Shown one piece after another: positions 1 through 15,177 of a stretch of DNA of 64,000 nucleotides. Below the pieces are notes generated by a model. That model saw only the letters and a program-made list of their open reading frames with translations, did not search any database and had not been told where the DNA came from. The DNA lies in NCBI GenBank assembly GCA_947498595.1, contig CANMKX010000012.1, forward strand, positions 1 to 64,000, read 5' to 3'. A program made the position numbers and the translations under genes. Origin of the DNA: an uncultured Aquimarina sp. (GTDB lineage: Bacteria > Bacteroidota > Bacteroidia > Flavobacteriales > Flavobacteriaceae). How positions within the stretch are numbered: position 1 is the stretch's first letter; every line of letters begins with the position of its first letter.

Positions 1-615
1 GCTGGGACTGCCTCTTCGAAGAAAAGTTAAGAAACGTTTACCAGCCAGAGTAAAAGAACCTTTAGAAGTACCTGTAGTACCAAATCATACTTGGAGTATG
101 GATTTTTTAACTGATGTATTAGAGAATAAAAGACGCTTCAGAGCTTTTGCTATTATGGATGATTTTAATCGAGAAGCTCTTCATATAGAAATTGATTATT
201 CATTCCCTAGTAGTCGTGTTGTTTATGTGTTAAATCATCTTTTAAAACGCAAAGGGAAACCAAAAAAAATACGAATGGATAATGGTCCTGAGTTCATTGC
301 CAATTTAACGGCTACTTGGAGTGAAATGCATGAGATAGACTTTCAGTATATACAACCAGGAAAACCCACGCAGAATGCATTTATTGAACGATTTAATGGT
401 TCATTTAGAAGAGGTGTACTTAATAAATATATTTTTGAAGATATTAACCAAGTTAGAGAACAAACACATATTTGGATGTACGATTACAATCATTTTAGAC
501 CACATGATTCATTAAACGATTTGGCACCAATTCCCTATGCTAAATTAAAATTGGGAAAGAATAACTATATTGAACCTTTAGAAATTTAAGCAGTTCTAAT
601 TTGGGGAAGCCGACA
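1..615 (+). mobile_element. IS3-family insertion sequence, right-hand part
   Basis: Only the right part is in the window; the left end lies before position 1. It carries the 3' part of a DDE transposase. The likely right terminus is at about 611-615: read inward from there on the minus strand it begins TGTCGGCTTCCCC, with the TG start usual for IS3 ends. Just beyond 615 the minus-strand methyltransferase frame resumes, so this is the insertion junction. The target duplication cannot be checked without the left end. Confidence 0.8.
2..589 (+). CDS. IS3-family transposase OrfB (integrase core), 5' end outside window
   Basis: Catalytic transposase subunit of an IS3-type element, which in intact elements is usually made as an OrfAB frameshift fusion. 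The frame is open from nucleotide 2, so the protein continues upstream of the first in-window Met (98). The rve-type core shows the three acidic residues: WSMDFLTD, RMDNGPEF and NAFIERFNGSF. The second Asp and the Glu are separated by 35 residues, the DD35E spacing of this family. The end, HFRPHDSLNDLAP, matches the usual C-terminal HxxRPHxSL motif. The stop lies 26 bases before the inferred IS end, so the C-terminus looks intact. Confidence 0.92.
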   Translation: MGLPLRRKVKKRLPARVKEPLEVPVVPNHTWSMDFLTDVLENKRRFRAFAIMDDFNREALHIEIDYSFPSSRVVYVLNHLLKRKGKPKKIRMDNGPEFIANLTATWSEMHEIDFQYIQPGKPTQNAFIERFNGSFRRGVLNKYIFEDINQVREQTHIWMYDYNHFRPHDSLNDLAPIPYAKLKLGKNNYIEPLEI

Positions 616-1541
616 TAAGTAGATCTTTTTTTAAATAATTGTTCTCCTCCAAAATCTATGATAGAAATATCAAACTTATTGGATGAAAAATAGTTTCTCA
701 CAGACCGTCCATTTAAACTTTTGTAAAAGGTGTTGACTGTTATATACCCTAATATTCCGTTTTCGTTTAAATTTCCCATTCCTATTTCAAAAAATGGAAT
801 ATATAAGTCTGGTTTTCCTGTTTTAGAAACACTCCAATTTACTAATAAAGCTTTTGTTTCTTCATCCATTTTAGAAGAGCTAACATAAGGAGGGTTTCCA
901 ACAATAGCATCAAAGCCATTATTTTCATATATAGTTTCTATCGTTTTCCAATTAAAGCTAAGAGCATTACCGCAGTATAAATTGAATTCATATGCAATCC
1001 TATCTTCATCATTGATAATAGCTAGTAATGAAAGTAATATTTTAGTTCTTAGAATACTATATTCTTGAATATCTAAGCCATAAATATTATCCCTATATAT
1101 TTCATAAAAACTTTTCTCGGTATTATCTCGATAGTATTCCGTTATTGTTTTAAAAAAACCACCACACCCACAAGCAATATCTCCAAATTTCAAATCGGAT
1201 AAAGCTTCTGAATTTTGTTTTTCAATGGTCTTTTCTACAATATGTTTTCTAATATATTCAGGGGTAAAAACTGCTCCGTTTACCTCTTTATCTTGAGGAG
1301 AAATAACAAATTCAAATAGTTCAATTAACTCTTCTATATCAAAAGAATGCTTATCAAACAATTGAATGAATTCTGTTACCTGATTTAATTCTTTTTCTTC
1401 TGATATAATAAAATGATTAATGAATGTATTTTTTACCTTTTTAATTTTATTGACAACCAAAAATGAAGACACCAAAAGACGATTGACATCTTTGGTATCA
1501 TAAGAGTAATTTTTTAAATATTTTAGTATGCTTTGATTCAT
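616..1541 (-). pseudogene. Eco57I-like N6-adenine DNA methyltransferase, truncated by the IS
   Basis: The N-terminal ~308 residues of a class I adenine methyltransferase. Visible are the GAVFTPEYI segment typical of type I/IIG enzymes, a SAM-binding motif I variant (DIACGCGGFF) at about residue 121 and the catalytic NPPY motif near 216. Past position 616 the frame runs antisense into the IS and stops at 540, adding about 24 foreign residues. The target-recognition and C-terminal part is therefore missing, or lies beyond the IS to the left of the window. The start is 1 base after the stop of the upstream gene, so it belongs to the same operon. If intact it would methylate adenine for self-marking or as part of a restriction/defence system; as it stands it is probably inactive. 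Confidence 0.85.
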
Positions 1542-1542
1542 G

Positions 1543-2253
1543 CTAGTTTATATACAATGGAAAAAGTTTATTCATTGTGAAGTCTTGATGTGTATTTATA
1601 GAATCAAAAGCTTTAAAATATGGAGTCCACAATCTTTCCTGAGCTCGTTTTATTATTTGTTGATAATCATAATTTCCTTTTAGTTCATTTACAAAAGAGT
1701 AATCTTTCGAGCTATAAAAATTCGAAATAATAAAATGAAACCCTAAAAATATATCCATTGGTGGATGTGGTAATCTTGGGCTGGAAAAAATTGAAATTTG
1801 ACCTGTATCTAGACCTTCTAAATATTCACCTCCAAAATGAAAATGATATGTTGGGTGGGTGTATTTGGGTTCAGAACTATCTATATGTTTATCTAAATGC
1901 CAACAATTTTTATATGGCTCACCATCTTCATCTTCAGTACTTACATAAGAATCAATATTTAATTCAAATAAATAATTTTCAACAATATCGTTTAATGCAA
2001 CATCTTTTTTATTTAATGATATTGTATTATCCAGTGATATTTTATATTTATTTAAAGTTTCAGGCATTGTACCAGATATTCTTTTATTTAAATTAAAAAC
2101 AATACCTTTAATTTCGTATTCAAATGAATCTAAAGAATCCATTCTACCTATAAAATTATATAATGAGGTAAAATCTCCTATTTGATATGTATTTATCAGT
2201 TCTAAGAATTTACTTAAATCTTGTCTTAAATTTCTTAAACTCCAATTATCCAT
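1543..2253 (-). CDS. Uncharacterised protein of a GHKL/receiver/methylase operon
   Basis: I do not recognise a named family. The protein is about 236 residues, soluble, with no signal peptide or membrane segment. The C-terminal half holds what looks like a conserved core: a His-rich stretch (NCWHLDKHI and YHFHFGGEYLEG), then SPRLPHPPMDIFLGFHF, then NFYSS and AQERLWTPYFKAF. The spacing of His, Asp and aromatic residues suggests an enzyme or metal-binding fold, but this is a guess. ATG 2253 overlaps the stop of the receiver gene (ATGGATAA); an in-frame ATG at 2265 is possible. The next gene starts 1 base after the stop, so translation is probably coupled and the protein probably acts with the receiver and methyltransferase proteins. 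Confidence 0.75.
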   Translation of the reverse strand: MDNWSLRNLRQDLSKFLELINTYQIGDFTSLYNFIGRMDSLDSFEYEIKGIVFNLNKRISGTMPETLNKYKISLDNTISLNKKDVALNDIVENYLFELNIDSYVSTEDEDGEPYKNCWHLDKHIDSSEPKYTHPTYHFHFGGEYLEGLDTGQISIFSSPRLPHPPMDIFLGFHFIISNFYSSKDYSFVNELKGNYDYQQIIKRAQERLWTPYFKAFDSINTHQDFTMNKLFPLYIN

Positions 2254-3319
2254 TCGCTCTTTCATTTTTTACTAGTTCACGAATAGCTTTTTTATCAATA
2301 GCACTTATTTGATTTTTGTATACTTCCATTTGACCAGCTAAGGCGGAATCAATAGAAATATACTCTTTTTCTTGCCAAGGTAAATAATCCTTTAAAAGTT
2401 CAATTCCATCAAATGGGTCTAAAGCTTCCTTTGAAAATTTACAAACTGTCCAAAAGTTAGAGCTTAAAGAATGTTTTGTTTTTATTAATGGGATTAAGTT
2501 TTCTAATCCTAATTTTGAATTTAATAATTCAACTCTTTCTCCTGCGTTTAGTCGTCTTATTGAGGTATCGGAAGATATACTATCGTTCCACCATTTATTA
2601 ACTTTATCCATCCACCAACGTTGTTTTATATCTGAAAAAACACCTGTATACGAAGCTGTTTTTAAGGATTCTAAAACTTGAGGCCAATTATCAGAATCCT
2701 GAGAAATACCTAACCTTGCAGATAGAACATCTATACCTATAGTTAAGCCGATTGAACAAAGTAAGTTATCATAAATTAATGAGCTTATTTTAAAGTGATT
2801 ATTGTTTAATTTTTCATAGTCTGAAATAAATCTGGAATGTAAAATAATTTTACTTTCATCTATACCTAATGACTTAGATAAGTTATTATCTGATTTTATC
2901 TTTTGATAAGCAGAAATAAATGAATTTAATTTTTGACCGAATATCTCTTTATTTGAAACAAAGTCTTGTTTTGTAATTGTAAAGTCAAATAAATCTTGAC
3001 TAGTATAATCATTATTATAGTAATCAGTGAAATTTGTTTGATTTGACATTAAGACTATTGGAATGTTAAAACCATCAACAGAATGCATAGTTCTAACAAA
3101 TTGAGCTATTGTTGGTGCATCAAAACAAGCCTGTTCACCTGTGCCTTCTGTTAGTTTATAATCTAAAATTAAAGCATTAATACCGTCTTTTACTTTTAAT
3201 TCAATTTCTTTAAAATCATTTGTGGGGTCATGGGTTATTACTTCAAATCCTAATTCTTCGAAATCTGCTTTTCTACTAGCAGTATCTTGATCATCTATAT
3301 ATAATATTTTATAAGCCAT
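2246..3319 (-). CDS. Response-regulator receiver domain protein with an unknown C-terminal domain
   Basis: The N-terminal ~120 residues are a REC domain counted from ATG 3319: acidic pair D9/D10 (ILYIDDQD), phospho-acceptor D53 (LILDYKL), S92 (IVLMSNQ) and K117 (TITKQDF). About 235 C-terminal residues match no DNA-binding or enzymatic output domain I know, so it may signal through protein contacts. ATG 3319 is preferred over the upstream ATG 3337 because MAYKILYIDD is a normal REC start. It overlaps the end of the kinase-like gene by 11 bases. The likely phosphodonor is that adjacent GHKL protein, whose gene is broken here. Confidence 0.85.
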   Translation of the reverse strand: MAYKILYIDDQDTASRKADFEELGFEVITHDPTNDFKEIELKVKDGINALILDYKLTEGTGEQACFDAPTIAQFVRTMHSVDGFNIPIVLMSNQTNFTDYYNNDYTSQDLFDFTITKQDFVSNKEIFGQKLNSFISAYQKIKSDNNLSKSLGIDESKIILHSRFISDYEKLNNNHFKISSLIYDNLLCSIGLTIGIDVLSARLGISQDSDNWPQVLESLKTASYTGVFSDIKQRWWMDKVNKWWNDSISSDTSIRRLNAGERVELLNSKLGLENLIPLIKTKHSLSSNFWTVCKFSKEALDPFDGIELLKDYLPWQEKEYISIDSALAGQMEVYKNQISAIDKKAIRELVKNERANG

Positions 3320-3406
3320 TTTCTTCAGAAATTCCATCCCCTGTATCTGAAAACTCTAGAAAAACATATTTATCATTAATTCCACATTCAATCTTTATTT
3401 CTCCAG

Positions 3407-3413
3407 TTTTTTT
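3407..3413 (-). other. Homopolymer frameshift site in the GHKL gene
   Basis: Seven A residues on the minus strand. Adding one restores the frame into a recognisable ATPase G1 box. It could be a real indel or a sequencing error. Confidence 0.7.
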
Positions 3414-5260
3414 GTTCTTTTTATTGCTTTTTTTGCATTGGTATAAAAGTTAAATAAAATAGAAGACCATTCTGAAGGATGCATTGGTCTAGAGTACAAA
3501 TACGAACCATTTCTTATAGGTCGGGCGAATTTAATATTACTTTTTTCAGCATCATTATTCATAGACTCCCAAAAATTCTCAGAAGTATTCTGTACTTCAA
3601 TTGGTTTTAATTCTCTAACTACATTTTGAGAGATTACATTGTCAAAATAAGAGGTGTAACTTTGAAAAGTAGCTACATTTTTTTCCAAAATAATTAACCG
3701 CTCTGTTAGCGCTGTATCTGAACGTAATTTTTCTAAAAGAAATTTTACATCAGATTCCATGTTTATAACATAATCTCGTACTTCATGAATAAACTGACCA
3801 ATAGTAATGCCAACACTACTTAAAACACGTAACATTGATTTCTCTTTTAGCATCTTGTTTGTTTCTTTTTTCTGTTCTTCAGCTAACTTTTCTATATCAT
3901 TTTTTAGTTTTTGTACTTTCTTTCTCCTTTTTCTTTTTACTTGCAGACTACCTTCTCCTTTTTCTAACTCAAGGTCTAAAGCCTCAAGTGTATGTGCTAT
4001 ATCTTTTATTCGAACCTCAATTTTCTCCCAAGTTTTCCCTTCTTTTTTCTGACCAGAAACAATTTTTACATTTCTGACTTCTGCAACTTTTAAAACACCA
4101 GTCATTATTGTTCTATATATAAAATTTTGAAGTTGAACTAAGGCTTCATTTTCCATTAAACCTTCACGACTTGAAGTTTCATTGAATGTTTTTTTATCAT
4201 CTGTAATTTCAACAAACCCAAAAAAGTTTTGATTATTATGAACTGGAAGGATAGATCTTCTTGAAACTGATTCATCTAATTTTAACCAATCATTTCCAGT
4301 TTCACCATAAGGTAATACTCTAAAACCATTTCTATATAATCTAATACCTCCTATAGTTTTTGATAATCTTTTAATACTAGTTTCGTGCATTTTTGGAATA
4401 TGACCTGAATTATAGATATAATAATAAGCCTTAAAACGAACATTTCTTAATTCTGTAAAAGGAGTTGTCATATCATCTGGATCGCTTCCTATTTTTCCTG
4501 TTTCGTTGATGTCTAGACTTTTACTTTCAACAGAATAAATACCTAAGCCTTTATCATCAATCCACCCTTCAATTTCTGCTAATGCATGGTCGTAGATCAT
4601 ACTAGATTCATCTGCAATAATTATTTCAGTTGAATCTTCAATTTTCTTAAAAGTAGTTTTAAATCCTGGATCTATTATTTCTTTAACTTTAATTTCATAT
4701 CCAGTTTCGATATTTTCTTCTTTTAATTTTGAAAGTGGAAATGGTTGAATAATTGCACTTACATATCTATAAATTCTTTTTATAGCAGCCTGTGTCCATT
4801 TATCTCTTAAATTTTCTATTTTTAAAGTAGTTCCTTCTTCTTTTTCTTTTTCTATCGAAACAATTTTATTGGTAATATTTACTAAATCAATGTCTCCTTT
4901 GTACTTATCCCATTCTATTGTTAACTCTAAAGCATTATTACTATCTTTTGTTTGTGTCGTAATAGTCAGTTTTTCACCCAATCTTTGAACTGCAAACCTT
5001 CCAATTCCTTTTTGTCCAGACCTTTTTCGTTTATATTTTAGTGATAAAGGATTATGAAGTTTATCGGTAGAAGAAATACGCATAAAACCATTAATTAACT
5101 GCTCTCTGGTCATTCCAATTCCATCATCTTCAATTAGTAAAGTTCCTCCAATGAAGTCAGAATCTTTAAATTTTAAGATTACTTCTTTTGCATCAGCATC
5201 ATAAGAGTTTTTAACTAATTCCGAAACTGCGGTTTCTTGTCTAGCTACTAATTCAGTACC

Positions 5261-5263
5261 TTA
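5261..5263 (-). other. In-frame nonsense codon in the GHKL gene
   Basis: On the minus strand the codon after GAC AGA is TAA. The flanking frame continues as a textbook GHKL N-box on one side and an unbroken N-terminus back to the TAATG start on the other. One T-to-A change from TTA (Leu) explains it. Confidence 0.85.
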
Positions 5264-5415
5264 TCTGTCAATTACACCAGCATCTACACTAAAGCGAATA
5301 TTATCTTTGTCAAAACTTGCTAATTTTGTAGATAATTCTAAAATTTTACTGTAATTACTAGAATCATTGGCTAAGGTTTTTTCTAATTCCTCCCTAATTT
5401 GTTTTTCTTCCATCA

Positions 5416-6408
5416 TTACATTTTTTTAATTCTAGTGTTCAATTCAGTAATTCTTTCTATCAGTTTATCAAAGTTAATTGTAGAACCATAAAACATACTT
5501 TCTTGCATTGTTTTATAGTCCTTTTCCCAATGCCTAATTGTTACTTCTGGTGGAACAATGTTTATTGATTTGGGTATGTGATTTGCATAATCAATTCCTC
5601 TTATGGTGTTAAAGTTTTGTCTGTGCTCAACAATTATATTATATAGAATGGTATCTTTTAAAGCTTCTATTCCATGAAGAGTATCCATTAGTTTTTCTAA
5701 ATCATACAAATGACGACTCATTCTTTCTACACGTATAAATTTGGTTTCTTTTTGAAACTCTTCATGCAATAGAAATATTTTTTCTAAGAATGTACGTTTT
5801 GGAGATACTACAGGAATTGTAATTTCTTTTTCTGCAAATGGGAGTTGGCTAAATTCACTTGAAACTATTGAAATAATTGCTTTTTCATCCATAGGTTCCA
5901 TTAAAGACCTTGCACCAACTTCGATTAAAACTCTAGGCTTTAGATAATCCGATGTTTCTGTTAAAGATTTGTATCGTAATTCAATAATTAATGGGTCAGT
6001 ATCGGTGTTCTTTGTTTCTTGAATAATTAACTCATAGTCTGATACACCTAACTTTATTAGTTCATTATTAATGTCATTATAAAATTCTGTTCCAATAAAA
6101 GAGTAAGAAGCTTTTCGTAGTTTTTTAACTTGTGTCTTGCTCAATTCTCCTTCAAAACCAAGATGTTTTCTATCTATTACTAAATCTATATCTTCAGAAA
6201 AACGTTCAATTAAATCCCAAGCTTTGCTAAGAGAAGTTCCGCCTTTAAAAACTATTTGATTTGCATATGGTAATGAGAAGATAATATTTAAAGATAAAGT
6301 TACCCACCAATCTTTTTCTACAGCAGAAGAAGGTAAACCAGAGCGTTCACTTGTCTGATTAAAGATATTCAGTTTATCTTTTTTGCTAAGTTTTATAAAG
6401 TCCTTCAT
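5416..6408 (-). CDS. abiEii: AbiEii/AbiGii-type nucleotidyltransferase toxin
   Basis: Toxin of a type IV-like AbiE toxin-antitoxin pair. Characterised AbiEii/MenT relatives are nucleotidyltransferases that halt growth, in some cases by modifying tRNA. The N-terminal third has the nucleotidyltransferase signature: FKGGTSLSKAW followed by RFSEDIDLVID, giving the Gly-Gly-Thr-Ser loop and the DxD metal pair. The length (330) is usual for the family. The start ATG overlaps the antitoxin stop by one base (TAATG), and its own stop overlaps the next ATG in the same way, so three genes are translationally linked. It appears intact although downstream operon members are broken. Confidence 0.9.
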   Translation of the reverse strand: MKDFIKLSKKDKLNIFNQTSERSGLPSSAVEKDWWVTLSLNIIFSLPYANQIVFKGGTSLSKAWDLIERFSEDIDLVIDRKHLGFEGELSKTQVKKLRKASYSFIGTEFYNDINNELIKLGVSDYELIIQETKNTDTDPLIIELRYKSLTETSDYLKPRVLIEVGARSLMEPMDEKAIISIVSSEFSQLPFAEKEITIPVVSPKRTFLEKIFLLHEEFQKETKFIRVERMSRHLYDLEKLMDTLHGIEALKDTILYNIIVEHRQNFNTIRGIDYANHIPKSINIVPPEVTIRHWEKDYKTMQESMFYGSTINFDKLIERITELNTRIKKM

Positions 6409-7004
6409 TATTTTATATTCCTTATAATTTTAGATATCCAAGCAGGAGCTAGTTTTGAATCATGTTCTATGATTTCTTCTTTTTCTAATTTAAGATGTTT
6501 TGAAATTATTTCTATTTGTTCTTCAGTTACATTTTCTTTTCCTATCTCTTTTAATGCTTGTATAACTAAACTTGTTATTTTTCCTTTTACAGCTAAGTTT
6601 TTAGGTGTAGTTCTTTTAAATTTAATTGTCCTTTTTCCAACAGCTATACTACGAGCTGCTCCATCAGTAAGAAATACAATGTTCATAGGTATTTGATTAG
6701 ATAAACCAAGTTGATTTAATGCTTTTATTCCTGTTGGAATAATTCGTGCTTTATCTCTATTTGCAATTGCGTTTGCGATTTCTTCTATTGAAGGATATAG
6801 TACGCCTAATAATTTATCCTCTTTGGGGTATAAATATATTCCATGAGCGAGTCTTATAAGAAATTTTTTGTTCTCCAGTCTTAGTAGAGATTTTTTCACA
6901 ACTTCAACATTTCCAATACCATCAAAGTTAGAAGGGAATAGAATACTCCCTCTTTTCATTGATTTTATTTTGTTTTCAATTCTGTTTTGAACTGAGTTAT
7001 TCAT
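6408..7004 (-). CDS. abiEi: AbiEi-like antitoxin (DUF6088 type)
   Basis: Cognate antitoxin and probable autorepressor of the AbiEii toxin. The N-terminal ~75 residues resemble the winged-helix module of this family (LENKKFLIRLAHGIYLYP). The middle part, ARIIPTGIKALNQLGLSNQ then VFLTDGAARSI, is characteristic of DUF6088/AbiEi proteins. It is the first gene of the operon. A perfect 10-bp inverted repeat lies 14-43 bases upstream of its start codon, fitting negative autoregulation as shown for streptococcal AbiEi. The family assignment is by recognised motifs, not by a search. Confidence 0.88.
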   Translation of the reverse strand: MNNSVQNRIENKIKSMKRGSILFPSNFDGIGNVEVVKKSLLRLENKKFLIRLAHGIYLYPKEDKLLGVLYPSIEEIANAIANRDKARIIPTGIKALNQLGLSNQIPMNIVFLTDGAARSIAVGKRTIKFKRTTPKNLAVKGKITSLVIQALKEIGKENVTEEQIEIISKHLKLEKEEIIEHDSKLAPAWISKIIRNIK

Positions 7005-7018
7005 GACAATGTTGTTTA

Positions 7019-7047
7019 TGTCCCAAATTTAGTAAATATTTGGGACA
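7019..7047 (-). promoter_or_regulatory. Candidate AbiEi operator: perfect 10-bp inverted repeat
   Basis: Arms TGTCCCAAAT (7019-7028) and ATTTGGGACA (7038-7047) with a 9-base spacer, just upstream of abiEi. The minus-strand sequence 7031-7024, TAAATTTG, matches the Bacteroidota -7 element TAnnTTTG and sits inside the repeat, so a bound dimer would block the promoter. No well-spaced TTG is seen, so the promoter itself is tentative. Confidence 0.65.
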
Positions 7048-7208
7048 ATAATTTCATATCATATCTTTTGTAAAAAAAGACAATAGTATTTTTTAAATTT
7101 CGAGTTCTTTTGACCTAGAGATGTTTCATTAAAAAATAATACACTACGCAAAAACACTGCGCAACATGCTTTCATTTTTGTACTGTTGTTTAATTAAAAA
7201 CATAGTAT

Positions 7209-7625
7209 ATGTCGCTAAAATCAGTAAGCAATCTTTATATCGAAAAACGAACAACTATTATCAATAATAAAAATCATTTTAAAATTGTCAATTATTTTGA
7301 ATTCATCATTAATGGAGAAAAACCTTATCCTTATGGAGATATTGTTGATATTACAAATTTTAAAGCTTCATTAATTAGCAATGGAATCTATTATATTTTC
7401 AATTGTTCATGTGGAATTCCTGAATGTGCTGGTAGAACAAAAGGTATAAAAGTTACCCATATTAATGATTCTTTAATCTGGGAGGATCTTGATTACAACA
7501 AGAAATGGCTTTTTAATATTCATCAAATTAAAACCTCTTTAGATAATATTAAAAAAGAAGAATTAAAATCTAAAAATTATTTTAATAAAAAAGGAGTTGA
7601 TTTCATTCCTGTACTAATTCCTTAA
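7209..7625 (+). CDS. Small Cys-containing protein of unknown function
   Basis: 138 residues, no signal peptide. A central FNCSCGIPECAGRTKGI motif places three Cys in CxC-x5-C spacing with little else conserved-looking apart from ITHINDSLIWEDL downstream, which could be a small zinc or structural knuckle. Its stop is 3 bases before the start of the first RlaP-type gene, so it is probably the first gene of that operon and made with it. It diverges from abiEi across a 204-base spacer. I cannot assign a function. Confidence 0.7.
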   Translation: MSLKSVSNLYIEKRTTIINNKNHFKIVNYFEFIINGEKPYPYGDIVDITNFKASLISNGIYYIFNCSCGIPECAGRTKGIKVTHINDSLIWEDLDYNKKWLFNIHQIKTSLDNIKKEELKSKNYFNKKGVDFIPVLIP

Positions 7626-7628
7626 ATC

Positions 7629-8366
7629 ATGAAAACAAAACTTAACAACATCGCGATAGCACGCGATATCGATATCCTCTACGCTTGCGAGTCGGGTAGT
7701 AGAGCATGGGGATTTGCTTCTCCTGATAGCGACTACGATGTTCGTTTTGTATATACAAAAGAACTCTCGTGGTATCTCTCAACATCTGAAGGTCGTGACA
7801 CCATCGATTTTATAGATGGTGATTTCGATGCTGTAGGTTGGGAATTACGCAAACAATTACGATTACTAAAAAAATCTAATGTATCCGCTTTAGAACATCT
7901 CTTTTCTCCTATTGTATATCTAGCAGAAAACGAGGTTTTAATCGAAACATTAAAATCTATTGCTTTGGAGTGTTTCTCTCCTATTTCATGTATGTATCAT
8001 TATAACAGTATGAGCAAAAAATATCGCGATAAATTAAATGGCGAGACCATAAAGTTAAAGGATCTTTTTTACGCTTTGCGAACGGCATTAGCAGGAAAAT
8101 GGATTTTAGAATACAAGAGTATGCCTCCTGTTATTTTCAGTAAAATGCTTCCGCTAGTTACTACTAATGAGAACAATGAAATTCTAAATCTTATGGAAAT
8201 AAAAGCAACTCAAAACGAAAATTATAATCATAACAATAATACTATTGTTACTGCATTAGTTTCAAAATTAATTTCTGAAAATGATATCTATGCTAAAACA
8301 CTTCCTAGCGGAAGTGTAGATAATAAACGTATTGATAATTTTTTATATCATACACTTACTTCATAA
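7629..8366 (+). CDS. RlaP-type nucleotidyltransferase (PF10127 family), copy 1
   Basis: DNA polymerase beta-superfamily nucleotidyltransferase of the family named for its association with RNA-repair ligases. The active-site signature is at the N-terminus: G23-S24 in ESGSRAWGF and the metal pair D35/D37 in DSDYDVRF. The C-terminal part is helical, as usual in the family, and 245 residues is a normal length. It is the second gene of a five-gene run. The family is thought to add nucleotides to damaged RNA ends; the substrate here is not known. The start follows the upstream stop by only 3 bases. Confidence 0.85.
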   Translation: MKTKLNNIAIARDIDILYACESGSRAWGFASPDSDYDVRFVYTKELSWYLSTSEGRDTIDFIDGDFDAVGWELRKQLRLLKKSNVSALEHLFSPIVYLAENEVLIETLKSIALECFSPISCMYHYNSMSKKYRDKLNGETIKLKDLFYALRTALAGKWILEYKSMPPVIFSKMLPLVTTNENNEILNLMEIKATQNENYNHNNNTIVTALVSKLISENDIYAKTLPSGSVDNKRIDNFLYHTLTS

Positions 8367-8405
8367 ACTCAAAAAACTACGATATAGCTTTCAAAATAAA
8401 ATATC

Positions 8406-9452
8406 ATGACAATAGCAGAACTTAAATCATCTGGATATATCATATTTGAAGCCATTAGTGGAAGTAGAGCCTATGGTTTAGCTACTGCTGCTTCGGATAC
8501 TGATATACGTGGAGTATTTATATTACCAAAAGAACATTTTTATGGACTTAATTATCTAGGTCAAATAAATAATGAGACCAACGATATTGTTTATTATGAA
8601 CTTCGAAAATTTATGGAGTTACTTCATAAAAACAATCCAAACATTATCGAGTTACTGCACATGCCAGAAGATTGTATTTTGTACAAACATCCACTTTTTG
8701 ATCGCATTAAAATAAGTGATATACTTTCTAAATTATGTAAAAATTCGTTTGCAAATTATGCTTATGCACAAATTAAAAAAGCACGTGGATTGAACAAAAA
8801 AATAGTTAATCCGATGGCTAAAAAACGAAAAACTGTACTTGATTTTTGTATGGTACATTTAGACAAAGAGGTTATTCCTTTTAGTGTTCTTTTAATAAAA
8901 AAAGGGAAACAAGAGGCTTTTGCTATTGCAAAAATAGCACATATGAAAGATTGTTACAACCTGTTTTACAACCCCTTAAATCACGGAGGCATTATAAAAG
9001 AAGGTGCTAACGAACTTCATGTAAGTTCTATCCCTAAAGGAGAAAAACCTATTGGAATTCTCTATTTTAATAAAGATAAATATTCTAATTATTGCAAGCA
9101 ATATAAGGAGTATTGGTCTTGGGTAAAAAACAGAAATGAAGCACGTTATGAAAACAATATTGCACATGGTAAAAATTATGACACCAAAAATATGATGCAT
9201 ACATTTCGATTATTACATATGGCTACAGAAATCGCTAAAGGAGAACTTATTGTAAGACGTCCAAACCGTGATTACTTATTAGCTATTAAACATGGGGAAT
9301 TCGAATATGAAGATCTCCTTCATCAAGCAGATGCCCTAAAAAAAAATCTAGATTCTCTTTTTGAAAAAACATCTTTGCAAGAAACTCCTGATAGTAAAGT
9401 AATCAATCACTTACTTTTTTCTATTAGAAATAATTACTATAATGTATCATGA
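8406..9452 (+). CDS. RlaP-type nucleotidyltransferase (PF10127 family), copy 2
   Basis: A second, clearly divergent member of the same superfamily: G19-S20 in ISGSRAYGL and D31/D33 in SDTDIRGVF, followed by YYELRKFMELL and NPNIIELLHMP, which are typical of the family. It is about 100 residues longer than its neighbour, so the two are not a recent tandem duplication. The stop overlaps the next start (ATGA), indicating coupling. Two non-identical nucleotidyltransferases side by side suggest sequential or substrate-specific steps on RNA ends. That role is inference. Confidence 0.85.
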   Translation: MTIAELKSSGYIIFEAISGSRAYGLATAASDTDIRGVFILPKEHFYGLNYLGQINNETNDIVYYELRKFMELLHKNNPNIIELLHMPEDCILYKHPLFDRIKISDILSKLCKNSFANYAYAQIKKARGLNKKIVNPMAKKRKTVLDFCMVHLDKEVIPFSVLLIKKGKQEAFAIAKIAHMKDCYNLFYNPLNHGGIIKEGANELHVSSIPKGEKPIGILYFNKDKYSNYCKQYKEYWSWVKNRNEARYENNIAHGKNYDTKNMMHTFRLLHMATEIAKGELIVRRPNRDYLLAIKHGEFEYEDLLHQADALKKNLDSLFEKTSLQETPDSKVINHLLFSIRNNYYNVS

Positions 9453-10123
9453 ATTCTTCCTTAATTTTCTCACAATTAACTCAACTTAAAACTTATTTAT
9501 CCAAGGAGTGGTTATTAAAATATCACAACATATTACATGAGGAGCACTTAAATAAATTAGCCATTCAGTTATCTCATTTCAAAATAGAAGGAGCTAAAAA
9601 ATTATTACCTCCACCTAAATTTGATGAAGAAATCACTCCCTCTATCCATGACAGTTTTGTTGTTTTTCAACCTTGGCTAAATGCTATAAATAGCTCAGAA
9701 TCTCTTGATAAATTAGCGTTTTTATTTGAACAAATTCCTTTTTCTAACATTCTTTTAATTTTGGGTCAGCGCTTAACTTCTGCTAGTATTCAAAACGATC
9801 AAGCCATCCCTCCTAGTTATGATATATTATTAAAGAGTTGTATGCAACCATTTAATAATCAAATTAAAGTTGCTACTCGAGCTTGGGAAAAGCATATAGG
9901 TCGTTCAACAGATACTTATTGGGGCAAAATCTATGGAAATTCAAAAGAGAAAGAGAAAATGGTCTTCAATCTTATTACAAAAATGCTTAAAAACTATACT
10001 TGGTGGAATGTCTTTTATCACTATAAACATGAGCTAGTTTTCGAAATTCGAGTAACTAGTGGTCATGGTATTAGGTGGAATCACACTGGCACTATATTTA
10101 TTGGGTTTTTAGAGCCTTTTTAG
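9449..10123 (+). CDS. Uncharacterised protein coupled to the RlaP genes
   Basis: 224 residues, no signal peptide, not recognised. It starts inside the end of the second nucleotidyltransferase gene (ATGA overlap) and ends 21 bases before the likely ATG of the DUF434-type gene, so it belongs to the operon. The C-terminus is distinctive: ELVFEIRVTSGHGIRW followed by GTIFIGFLEPF, a beta-rich run with His and Arg. That pattern could be an active site or an RNA-binding edge, but nothing proves it. It is the best place in this operon to look for a missing repair activity. Confidence 0.75.
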   Translation: MNSSLIFSQLTQLKTYLSKEWLLKYHNILHEEHLNKLAIQLSHFKIEGAKKLLPPPKFDEEITPSIHDSFVVFQPWLNAINSSESLDKLAFLFEQIPFSNILLILGQRLTSASIQNDQAIPPSYDILLKSCMQPFNNQIKVATRAWEKHIGRSTDTYWGKIYGNSKEKEKMVFNLITKMLKNYTWWNVFYHYKHELVFEIRVTSGHGIRWNHTGTIFIGFLEPF

Positions 10124-10144
10124 AATCAATTGAAAAATAATTTT

Positions 10145-10864
10145 ATGTCGTATACAAAACGTAATCGTGGAAAAGAAGCTAGTGATGATCGCTTATTTGG
10201 TACTACTATTATGCATAATAAATTAAAAGAAGCTGCAACAGACATGTGTTACTTACTCACCAAAGGGTATGCTGAAAAATCTGCGGTGCAACTTGTTGGT
10301 CATCGTTATCGATTAAACTCTCGTCAAATAAAAGTTTTACAAGGAATGAGTGCTAGCAAGCAAGCTATCGATATTAGGCAAAAACGTGCTATTTCTCCCA
10401 ACGATTTAAATAATAAAATTGTAATCATAGATGGTTTTAATTTATTAATCATATTAGAAAGTGCATTATCTGGAGCTTATTTATTTAAAGGTTTAGATGG
10501 TTATTATAGAGATATTTCTAGTGTTCATGGTACCTATAAGCGAGTGCAAAAAACAGAAGAAGCTTTAATTTTAATCGGAAAAATCTTGGGTAATTTACAA
10601 ATCAAAAAAGCTCTTTGGTATTTTGATTCGCCTGTTTCTAATAGTGGACGCTTGAAAGCTTTGTTATACGAAATCGCAATTAAATATAATTTTGCTTGGG
10701 ATATCTATTTGGATCATAATCCAGATAAAATTATTGCTACGAGTGAGCATATCGCTATCAGTGCTGATGCTTGGATATTAAATCAAGTAAAACATAATTG
10801 TAACTTAGGTGCATATCTCATTGAAAATTATATAACTGATCCTCTTATTGTATTTTCTTCTTAA
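10145..10864 (+). CDS. DUF434-type protein (COG2454-like) with PIN/NYN-like core
   Basis: About 239 residues from ATG 10145 (a TTG at 10130 is also in frame). The N-terminal helical part (AATDMCYLLTKGYAEKSAVQ and VGHRYRLNSRQIKVLQ) matches DUF434. The C-terminal part (IVIIDGFNLLIILESA, then ALWYFDSPVSNSGRLKA) looks like a nuclease-type Rossmann core of the PIN/NYN kind, with Asp residues in strand-end positions. Proteins of this type occur beside RlaP genes in predicted RNA-repair loci, as I recall from comparative-genomics work. It is the last gene of the operon. Confidence 0.75.
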   Translation: MSYTKRNRGKEASDDRLFGTTIMHNKLKEAATDMCYLLTKGYAEKSAVQLVGHRYRLNSRQIKVLQGMSASKQAIDIRQKRAISPNDLNNKIVIIDGFNLLIILESALSGAYLFKGLDGYYRDISSVHGTYKRVQKTEEALILIGKILGNLQIKKALWYFDSPVSNSGRLKALLYEIAIKYNFAWDIYLDHNPDKIIATSEHIAISADAWILNQVKHNCNLGAYLIENYITDPLIVFSS

Positions 10865-14409: not shown

Positions 14410-15177
14410 TTATTTTTTAAATTTTTCTAATGCTTTTTTTGTAAAATCTGATAGTATTAAATTTCCAGATATTTTTGCTCTTTCAAATAATAAAGTTCCC
14501 CATGCTTCTGTTCCTTGCCAGGTTATTTTTTTTAATTCTTGTAATGCTTCTGGATTGTAACTTGCCAATTTTTCTGCAAATAATAATACTTCTTTATCTA
14601 ATTCTTTTATGGTTTCAAATACTCTTGCGTAAAGTCCATGTTCTTTTCCCCAATATGCATTTTTCCAACTTGTAGGGTCCCAGGATAGCATTTCAAATGC
14701 TGTCTTTCCTACTTTTCTAGAGATTACTGGTTCTATTACAAAAGGGCCTATTCCTATAGATAACTCGCTTAACTTTACTGATGCTGCTTCTGTAGCCAAA
14801 CTATAATCACAAGCTGCAATTAATCCAACACCTCCCCCTACTGCTTCTCCTTGAATTCTACCTATAATTGGTTTTGAACATTCTCTCATAGCATTAATTA
14901 CTTTAGCAAATCCAGAAAAAAATTCTTTTCCTGCTGCTATTGTTTCTATTTCTGCTAATTCTTCAAATGAAGCTCCTGCACAAAAAGTTTGATTCCCTTC
15001 GGATTTTAAAATTATAACTTGTACATTTTCTTGTTCTGATAACTCTTGAAATACCATTGTTAATCGGTCTAACAACTCTAATGGTAAAGAGTTATTTGCT
15101 GGGTGTCCAAACTCAATTATTGCTATATTATCTTCAATTGTTGTATACAAACTTCCATTTGATCGTGTTGTCCCCAT
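14410..15177 (-). CDS. Enoyl-CoA hydratase/isomerase family protein
   Basis: Crotonase-fold enzyme of acyl-CoA metabolism. The oxyanion-hole blocks are visible: TFCAGASFEEL near residue 65 and RIQGEAVGGGVGLIAACD near 107-124. The usual catalytic Glu/Asp positions are not both obvious (LSELSIGIGPFV region), so the reaction cannot be named: hydratase, isomerase or a PaaG-like role are all possible. 255 residues is a normal length. It follows the MATE pump gene with a short gap and may be cotranscribed with it. Confidence 0.85.
   Translation of the reverse strand: MGTTRSNGSLYTTIEDNIAIIEFGHPANNSLPLELLDRLTMVFQELSEQENVQVIILKSEGNQTFCAGASFEELAEIETIAAGKEFFSGFAKVINAMRECSKPIIGRIQGEAVGGGVGLIAACDYSLATEAASVKLSELSIGIGPFVIEPVISRKVGKTAFEMLSWDPTSWKNAYWGKEHGLYARVFETIKELDKEVLLFAEKLASYNPEALQELKKITWQGTEAWGTLLFERAKISGNLILSDFTKKALEKFKK

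Follow-up and report, generated by a model that had tools for sequence, protein, structure and literature searches.

What does a kinase-like ATPase with its own receiver do in one operon with a DNA methylase and a type IV toxin-antitoxin pair? The question arises at positions 540-7004 of a 64,000-nucleotide stretch from an uncultured Aquimarina sp. (Flavobacteriaceae; assembly GCA_947498595.1, contig CANMKX010000012.1, positions 1 to 64,000), the whole of which we call the window. A preliminary description had seen there a compact six-gene operon, composed of an AbiE pair, a double-GHKL kinase-like protein, a receiver protein, a protein here termed His-rich and an N6-adenine methylase, and could name no defence system to which it would belong. 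In its intact copies this operon is a real, conserved system with active-site residues present; a role in defence is predicted from sequence. We regard it as an even call that intact copies are a phosphorelay-gated variant of restriction-modification (R-M), with an AbiE-controlled promoter where AbiE heads the operon.

The four genes other than the AbiE pair were expected to travel together, and they do not merely co-occur now and then: in 23 of 25 relatives, GHKL kinase, receiver, His-rich protein and N6-adenine methylase follow one another in this order on one strand. The relatives comprise the six best other genomes found with the open GHKL piece of the window (which matched 33 of 299 genomes in a family sample, its own genome included), a Hymenobacter plasmid to which the receiver led, and 18 loci that an alignment profile of the receiver detected, the single receiver protein having given no match in genome contigs. 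Because the loci were picked via GHKL or receiver, these counts show the constancy of the remainder, not the frequency of the operon. The two exceptions are L057 (loci carry L numbers throughout), where the methylase lies on the opposite strand and two open reading frames (ORFs) are shortened, and L068, which ends shortly after the receiver. The core genes overlap or lie a few bases apart; in 13 of the 25, GHKL and receiver share exactly 11 bases. Hosts span Bacteroidota, gammaproteobacteria and one planctomycete, and include Flavobacterium, Lutibacter (intact copy L052, Lutibacter sp. HS1-25), Salegentibacter, Pedobacter, Spirosoma, Hoylesella, Pseudoalteromonas, a Pseudomonadales bacterium and a Blastopirellula. 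One copy is plasmid-borne (Hymenobacter, L050); no match was found in 50,697 phage records or in a pattern-based scan of viral contigs. The His-rich protein is rare, occurring in one of 296 phylum-sample genomes, namely its own. Eleven of 26 more distant GHKL matches were inspected (L039-L049), and by profile the receiver and His-rich families are absent there within five ORFs.

The window copy is laid out as follows.

6408..7004, minus strand: AbiEi antitoxin (DUF6088), 198 amino acids (aa) and full length, homologues being 196-197 aa; PF19570 2.3e-77, PADLOC AbiEi 7.4e-71
5416..6408, minus strand: AbiEii nucleotidyltransferase toxin, 330 aa, full length; PF08843 5e-35, PADLOC AbiEii 2.6e-102
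3309..5416, minus strand: double-GHKL kinase pseudogene; stop at 5263-5261, frameshift near 3405, internal deletion near the C-terminus
2246..3337, minus strand: receiver (REC) protein, likely start 3319; uncatalogued C-terminal domain of ~210 residues
1543..2265, minus strand: His-rich protein in what we call the effector slot, likely start 2253; no Pfam, PADLOC or NCBIfam match
616..1541, minus strand: N-terminal half, with NPPY, of an Eco57I-type N6-adenine methylase; PF07669 2.3e-30; cut by an insertion sequence (IS), the ORF continuing to 540 inside the IS
1..615, plus strand: end of an IS3-family element inserted in the methylase; transposase fragment 98-589 on the plus strand, matching PF13683 and, as a fragment below the model cut-off, NF033516 (9.6e-37)

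Six real genes thus occupy 540-7004, all on the minus strand and read from 7004 to 540, as originally described, but the copy is broken, with three lesions in the GHKL gene (stop, frameshift, deletion) and a methylase gene interrupted by an IS3-family element. The open GHKL piece (3395-5113) still matches PF13589; in L051 (from an uncultured Flavobacteriaceae) and L052, the F and G2 boxes of the second ATPase lie in a stretch, just before the receiver start, that the window lacks. The IS end at 615 recurs in six other contigs, and the second half of the methylase opens contig C6 of the same assembly (G000:C6:66-1049), where it aligns at 78% with residues 297-625 of the L038 protein. The two halves (window 606-1541 and G000:C6:66-1049) correspond to L038 residues 1-312 and 297-625, a 16-residue overlap that is larger than a simple insertion gives. 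The window copy is therefore without an intact kinase and methylase; the AbiE pair remains open, as do the receiver and His-rich genes, whose lengths are as in relatives. No second receiver gene was found in the genome's own assembly. The pair at 7004-5416 consists of adjacent genes that match the AbiEi and AbiEii profiles and carries the nucleotidyltransferase motif (GG-x15-DhD, recognised by eye).

Intact copies, which the preliminary description had called for, were found in the relatives and retain their active-site residues. The intact GHKL protein has ~775 aa; in L033 and L038 its N-terminal HATPase_c_3 is followed by a dimerisation helix bearing a His and then by a C-terminal HATPase_c. 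In 24 of 24 intact copies, from which the window and L057 were left out, the helix keeps its His-Glu (the His is residue 542 in L052) and both ATP sites keep every N, G1 and G2 residue that was scored. This architecture in one protein beside a receiver gene is thus complete in intact relatives and broken in the window. The two ends of the protein resemble different things. NF050001, the model of BbrUII/HgiDII restriction enzymes, aligns with the N-terminal part alone (1.6e-24 in L052, 2.7e-21 in L036, 1.3e-22 in L064), reaching 76-86 bits against a 550-bit cut-off in these three intact copies and giving no full-length match; PADLOC likewise assigns this part a type II restriction-enzyme model at ~1e-12. 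The C-terminal part aligns with histidine kinases.

The window receiver has no Pfam match, but its predicted model is a REC fold. Asp16, Asp59, Ser98 and Lys123 are invariant in 72 family members; across 26 loci, residue 15 is acidic in all and Thr replaces Ser98 in two. With the scored residues of both kinase and receiver conserved, the earlier recognition of a two-component-like pair stands. Profile searches of the receiver recognised no DNA-binding output domain, the fold of its C-terminal part not having been examined. The window receiver (2246-3337, minus strand) is 97% identical to a protein named as from Tenacibaculum maritimum, whereas the nearest listed relative of the His-rich protein, at 90%, is from Aquimarina muelleri. 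This difference suggests exchange of single genes within the operon.

The His-rich protein belongs to no Pfam, NCBIfam or PADLOC family, and its predicted model, although confident (pLDDT 90.6), matched no solved fold well. Over 24 loci, among them the window but not L057, the residues Asp125, His137, His141, Arg164 and His167 never change, whereas His123 and Asp171 are kept in 23 and His127 in 16; this His/Asp pattern suggests a metal site. Its His/Pro motifs suggested DUF2290, an identity that searches did not support: none of 86 members matched at E up to 1, nor was there a match in PADLOC. A PF10053 search was uninformative, as it matched none of 60 genomes but also none of 14 controls. 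DUF2290 itself occurs in a helicase-DUF2290 anti-phage system (PMC9122126, PMC10952713).

In cousins with a related GHKL protein, an HNH-like gene follows the receiver in L039 (9e-7) and, just under the curated cut-off, in L048 and L049. The His-rich protein is called a probable nuclease mainly because nuclease-like genes occupy its slot in part of the cousins. Farther afield, an MBL-fold gene sits in the slot in L081 and in L083 (there IS-interrupted), and in the archaeal L082 a metallophosphoesterase lies ~1 kb behind the receiver. These distant GHKL-kinase operons, with an MBL-fold or metallophosphoesterase gene near the effector slot, point to a wider modular family; the genes after GHKL in L081, L083 and L084 were identified as receivers by eye only, and their E-values, from an 11-sequence set, carry little weight.

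The methylase matches PF07669 and keeps the catalytic NPPY in 25 of 25 loci, as a type II R-M system would need, and PADLOC ranks type II enzymes first for it; cousins L040 and L046 have a C5 methylase instead. Pairwise distances in 23 loci (window, L057 and L068 dropped as broken or incomplete; 499 permutations) correlate at r 0.69-0.83 among GHKL, receiver and His-rich protein, and at r 0.26-0.55 between the methylase and these three. Individual pairs show exchanges of both kinds. L052 and L053 share 81% GHKL, 77% receiver and 77% His-rich protein but 51% methylase; L053 and L054 are alike in GHKL (89%), receiver (83%) and methylase (82%, also 82% in its C-terminus), but their His-rich proteins share 51%. 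Between the window and L038, the methylase is at 78% and AbiE at 83-84%, the middle genes at 28-45%. GHKL, receiver and His-rich protein thus behave as one unit in which a member is now and then replaced; exchange of the methylase is freer. We read this as a core that would act together, protected by whichever methylase accompanies it. The data favour a phosphorelay that gates the His-rich protein rather than the methylase, since it is the His-rich protein that tracks kinase and receiver more tightly.

The preliminary description had taken the AbiE pair as joined to the operon. Such pairs do head 7 of the 25 relatives, but the pair is an optional head and not a fixed part: it comes in three unrelated types, and one of the seven toxins is broken. 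Type A precedes GHKL in the window, L038, L051 and L052, type B in L036 and L037, and type C in L055; L058 has a type C AbiEi and a broken AbiEii remnant (~6773-7261) directly before GHKL. The other 18 loci have none of the three types. As only these three were sought in all loci, seven is a lower bound. The three AbiEii types give no mutual phmmer match at 1e-3, and the six intact heads read into GHKL with gaps of -4 to 23 bases. Against a background of 35 AbiEii matches, fragments included, in 80 genomes (~0.4 per genome), one would expect fewer than 0.01 AbiEii genes immediately upstream among 25 loci, an estimate that assumes ~3,000 genes per genome and is weakened by defence-gene clustering, by shared descent within a type and by AbiEii forms that the Pfam model may miss.

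Upstream of the window pair lies a candidate control site.

7019..7047, no strand: probable AbiEi operator, a 29-bp inverted repeat with 10-bp arms and a TAnnTTTG box, at -43 to -15 of the AbiEi start

Its box is presumably a Bacteroidota promoter element. In the window, L038, L051 and L052, 28 of its 29 columns are invariant at identical spacing, compared with 7 of 60 and 4 of 14 in the flanks. The pattern occurs in 4 of 79 loci (none expected in window shuffles) and in 4 of 299 genomes (1 of 299 for a backwards control pattern), each operator standing at the head of an AbiE pair. In two of the four genomes that pair heads the core operon, and in two (L089, L090) no core genes lie within 16 kb. 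Since it also heads standalone pairs, the operator goes with AbiE, and in some genomes the restriction core stands behind it. Type B heads have a separate palindrome, a 42-bp inverted repeat with 16-base arms in L036 (~14920-14961, partly inside a mechanically called ORF start) and a shorter form in L037; none was found at the type C head. In a published AbiE system, AbiEi represses its own promoter (Dy 2014, PMC3985639); by analogy, we predict that AbiEi here would repress the promoter for all six genes.

That the AbiE pair is functionally unconnected to the core, a mobile toxin-antitoxin module that inserts by chance at operon heads, is unlikely but has to be taken seriously. The 18 relatives without any of the three types and the standalone pairs behind the same operator speak for it, whereas three unrelated types in the same place, with such short gaps and at so low an AbiEii density per genome, are difficult to attribute to chance.

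The reading that we favour for intact copies, phosphorelay-gated R-M, would work as follows. The N6-adenine methylase would mark host DNA. The soluble double-GHKL kinase, sensing through its N-terminal ATPase, would meet unmarked foreign DNA and pass a phosphoryl group from its invariant His to Asp59 of the receiver. The phosphorylated receiver would then switch on its His-rich partner, probably a nuclease. Where an AbiE pair leads, AbiEi would repress the shared promoter and AbiEii, where present, may be a backup toxin or stabiliser. Several findings are consistent with this reading: the same genes recur in the same order, kinase, receiver and methylase keep their active-site residues, the first two and the His-rich protein co-vary more closely with one another than with the methylase, and AbiE pairs repeatedly lead the operon, type A with a conserved promoter palindrome. 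In its fullest form, in which a His-Asp phosphorelay switches restriction, the GHKL kinase reads unmarked DNA, the receiver unleashes a nuclease of undescribed fold, and AbiEi at the head represses the whole operon together with a backup toxin, we hold it only tentatively, as somewhat short of even.

Several observations weigh against it. The His-rich protein resembles no nuclease by sequence or fold (86 family members scanned, model compared). A nuclease-like gene in or near the slot is present in only three of five plasmid records, the other two showing only hypothetical proteins; in L042, L044 and L047 no gene scanned after GHKL has a match, and in L040 and L046 the scan yielded only a receiver. 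The correlation between the His-rich protein and the specificity half of the methylase is weak (r 0.35), unlike that of a classical restriction enzyme and its methylase; yet the methylase is not independent of the core, as its correlations, though lower, all exceed permutations (p 0.002-0.014), and it is therefore looser, not free. The expected nearness to defence genes was borne out in part: among ten hand-picked flanking proteins from seven loci, six match defence models (two AbiE, a type I methylase, a type IIG enzyme, an SNF2-type helicase and a PDC candidate), but four match nothing.

Some of these observations would also suit an abortive effector. Kinase, receiver and His-rich protein would then be a unit that senses infection and attacks a cell component other than DNA, and the methylase a separate travelling marker, as its loose tracking of the other three and the lack of a nuclease match would allow. 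Detocs, a phosphorelay defence comprising DtcA, DtcB and DtcC with a nucleosidase as its non-DNA effector, offers a parallel. We consider this improbable, given that 23 of 25 loci nonetheless have the methylase in fourth place and that three cousins carry HNH-like genes in the slot.

Another rival is a conventional type II R-M system, with the His-rich protein as the site-specific restriction enzyme that belongs to the methylase, and with a kinase and receiver that do no more than regulate its expression or assembly. Methylase and effector-slot gene do share one operon, the first-ranked PADLOC matches of the methylase are type II enzymes, and the correlation between the two proteins is above chance. 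The co-variation pattern nevertheless speaks against a strict enzyme-methylase pair of one specificity, with the weak correlation to the specificity half and the divergence of the partners in L052-L053 and L053-L054; nor does the receiver have a DNA-binding output domain that profiles recognise. This makes a conventional system quite improbable. A purely regulatory role, in which the two-component system would tune an orphan methylase to control genes and take no part in defence, is very improbable: the kinase and receiver sites are complete and a lone methylase could be epigenetic, but the distribution is rare and patchy, the modules are shuffled, the GHKL N-terminus resembles restriction enzymes, and nuclease-like genes lie near the same place in some cousins.

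Is phosphorelay-gated R-M, then, without precedent? That the preliminary description could name no system is borne out for two of the parts, as receiver and His-rich proteins have no match in PADLOC-DB 2.0, but not for the association as a whole. Bellieny-Rabelo 2021 links a kinase-like HEF_HK and receiver-like Response_reg_2 pair to R-M genes and paraMORC ATPases (PMC8011034). As here, a predicted soluble kinase with HATPase_c_3, His helix and HATPase_c lies beside a receiver-like gene in R-M neighbourhoods; what differs, and is new beside that pair, is the fixed four-gene set with an adenine methylase (C5 methylases are conspicuous there), the uncatalogued His-rich third gene in the effector slot, and the AbiE heads. 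The corresponding families PF19191 and PF19192 matched neither the window proteins (E up to 0.1) nor intact L033 and L038 (E up to 1), and were not among the best 25 of 40 families for the 72 receiver members; a PF19192 search matched 2 of 149 genomes, the window's own not among them. GHKL proteins had earlier been placed in R-M systems (Iyer 2008, PMC2292703). The operon shares with MORC/paraMORC an N-terminal GHKL ATPase in an R-M gene neighbourhood, there at times with HNH nucleases, but has in addition a C-terminal histidine-kinase module and a receiver partner. With BbrUII/HgiDII it shares the alignment of 171-244 N-terminal residues, not the kinase-like C-terminal part. VcSduA, a GHKL-Shedu protein with reported anti-phage activity, is another case in which a GHKL ATPase is proposed to control a nuclease against phages, although nuclease and ATPase are there one protein, without kinase or receiver (PMC12137116). 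The AbiEi and AbiEii genes are those of the type IV system (PMC3985639), but here the transcript would run on into a restriction operon. In the light of Bellieny-Rabelo 2021, Iyer 2008 and VcSduA, the operon is a variant of an association published in 2021.

Detocs, too, has histidine kinase and receiver proteins in a defence operon, but is not known to have a GHKL-restriction ATPase or a methylase; among the Pfam matches of the scanned proteins here there was no nucleosidase, no Detocs-named profile having been run. No description of the four-gene operon or its AbiE head was found in open-licence literature, judged mostly by titles and abstract starts, and no such operon was seen in the sections considered of a BREX survey (PMC12839542).

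The neighbourhoods contain further genes. On the Hymenobacter plasmid (L050 2785-8422), a Piwi-domain protein and a type IIG restriction enzyme-methylase are neighbours of the operon. Downstream of the operon are a type I methylase in L053 (13932-15821), a PDC-M28B candidate-defence protein in L056 (14353-17235) and an SNF2-type helicase in L062 (14012-16843). In the window, 7629-10864 on the plus strand, divergent to the operon, encodes two RlaP-type RNA-repair nucleotidyltransferases, a protein without matches and a DUF434/DUF5616 protein, possibly an RNA-repair cluster.

Restriction systems are normally gated by direct DNA contact. If the phosphorelay reading of the intact copies is true, phosphorelays can license DNA destruction. 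The kinase-receiver-R-M association published in 2021 would gain a minimal unit of four genes, one of them a candidate effector. Operons of this one kind are also seen to be headed by type IV toxin-antitoxin genes that belong to three unrelated types.

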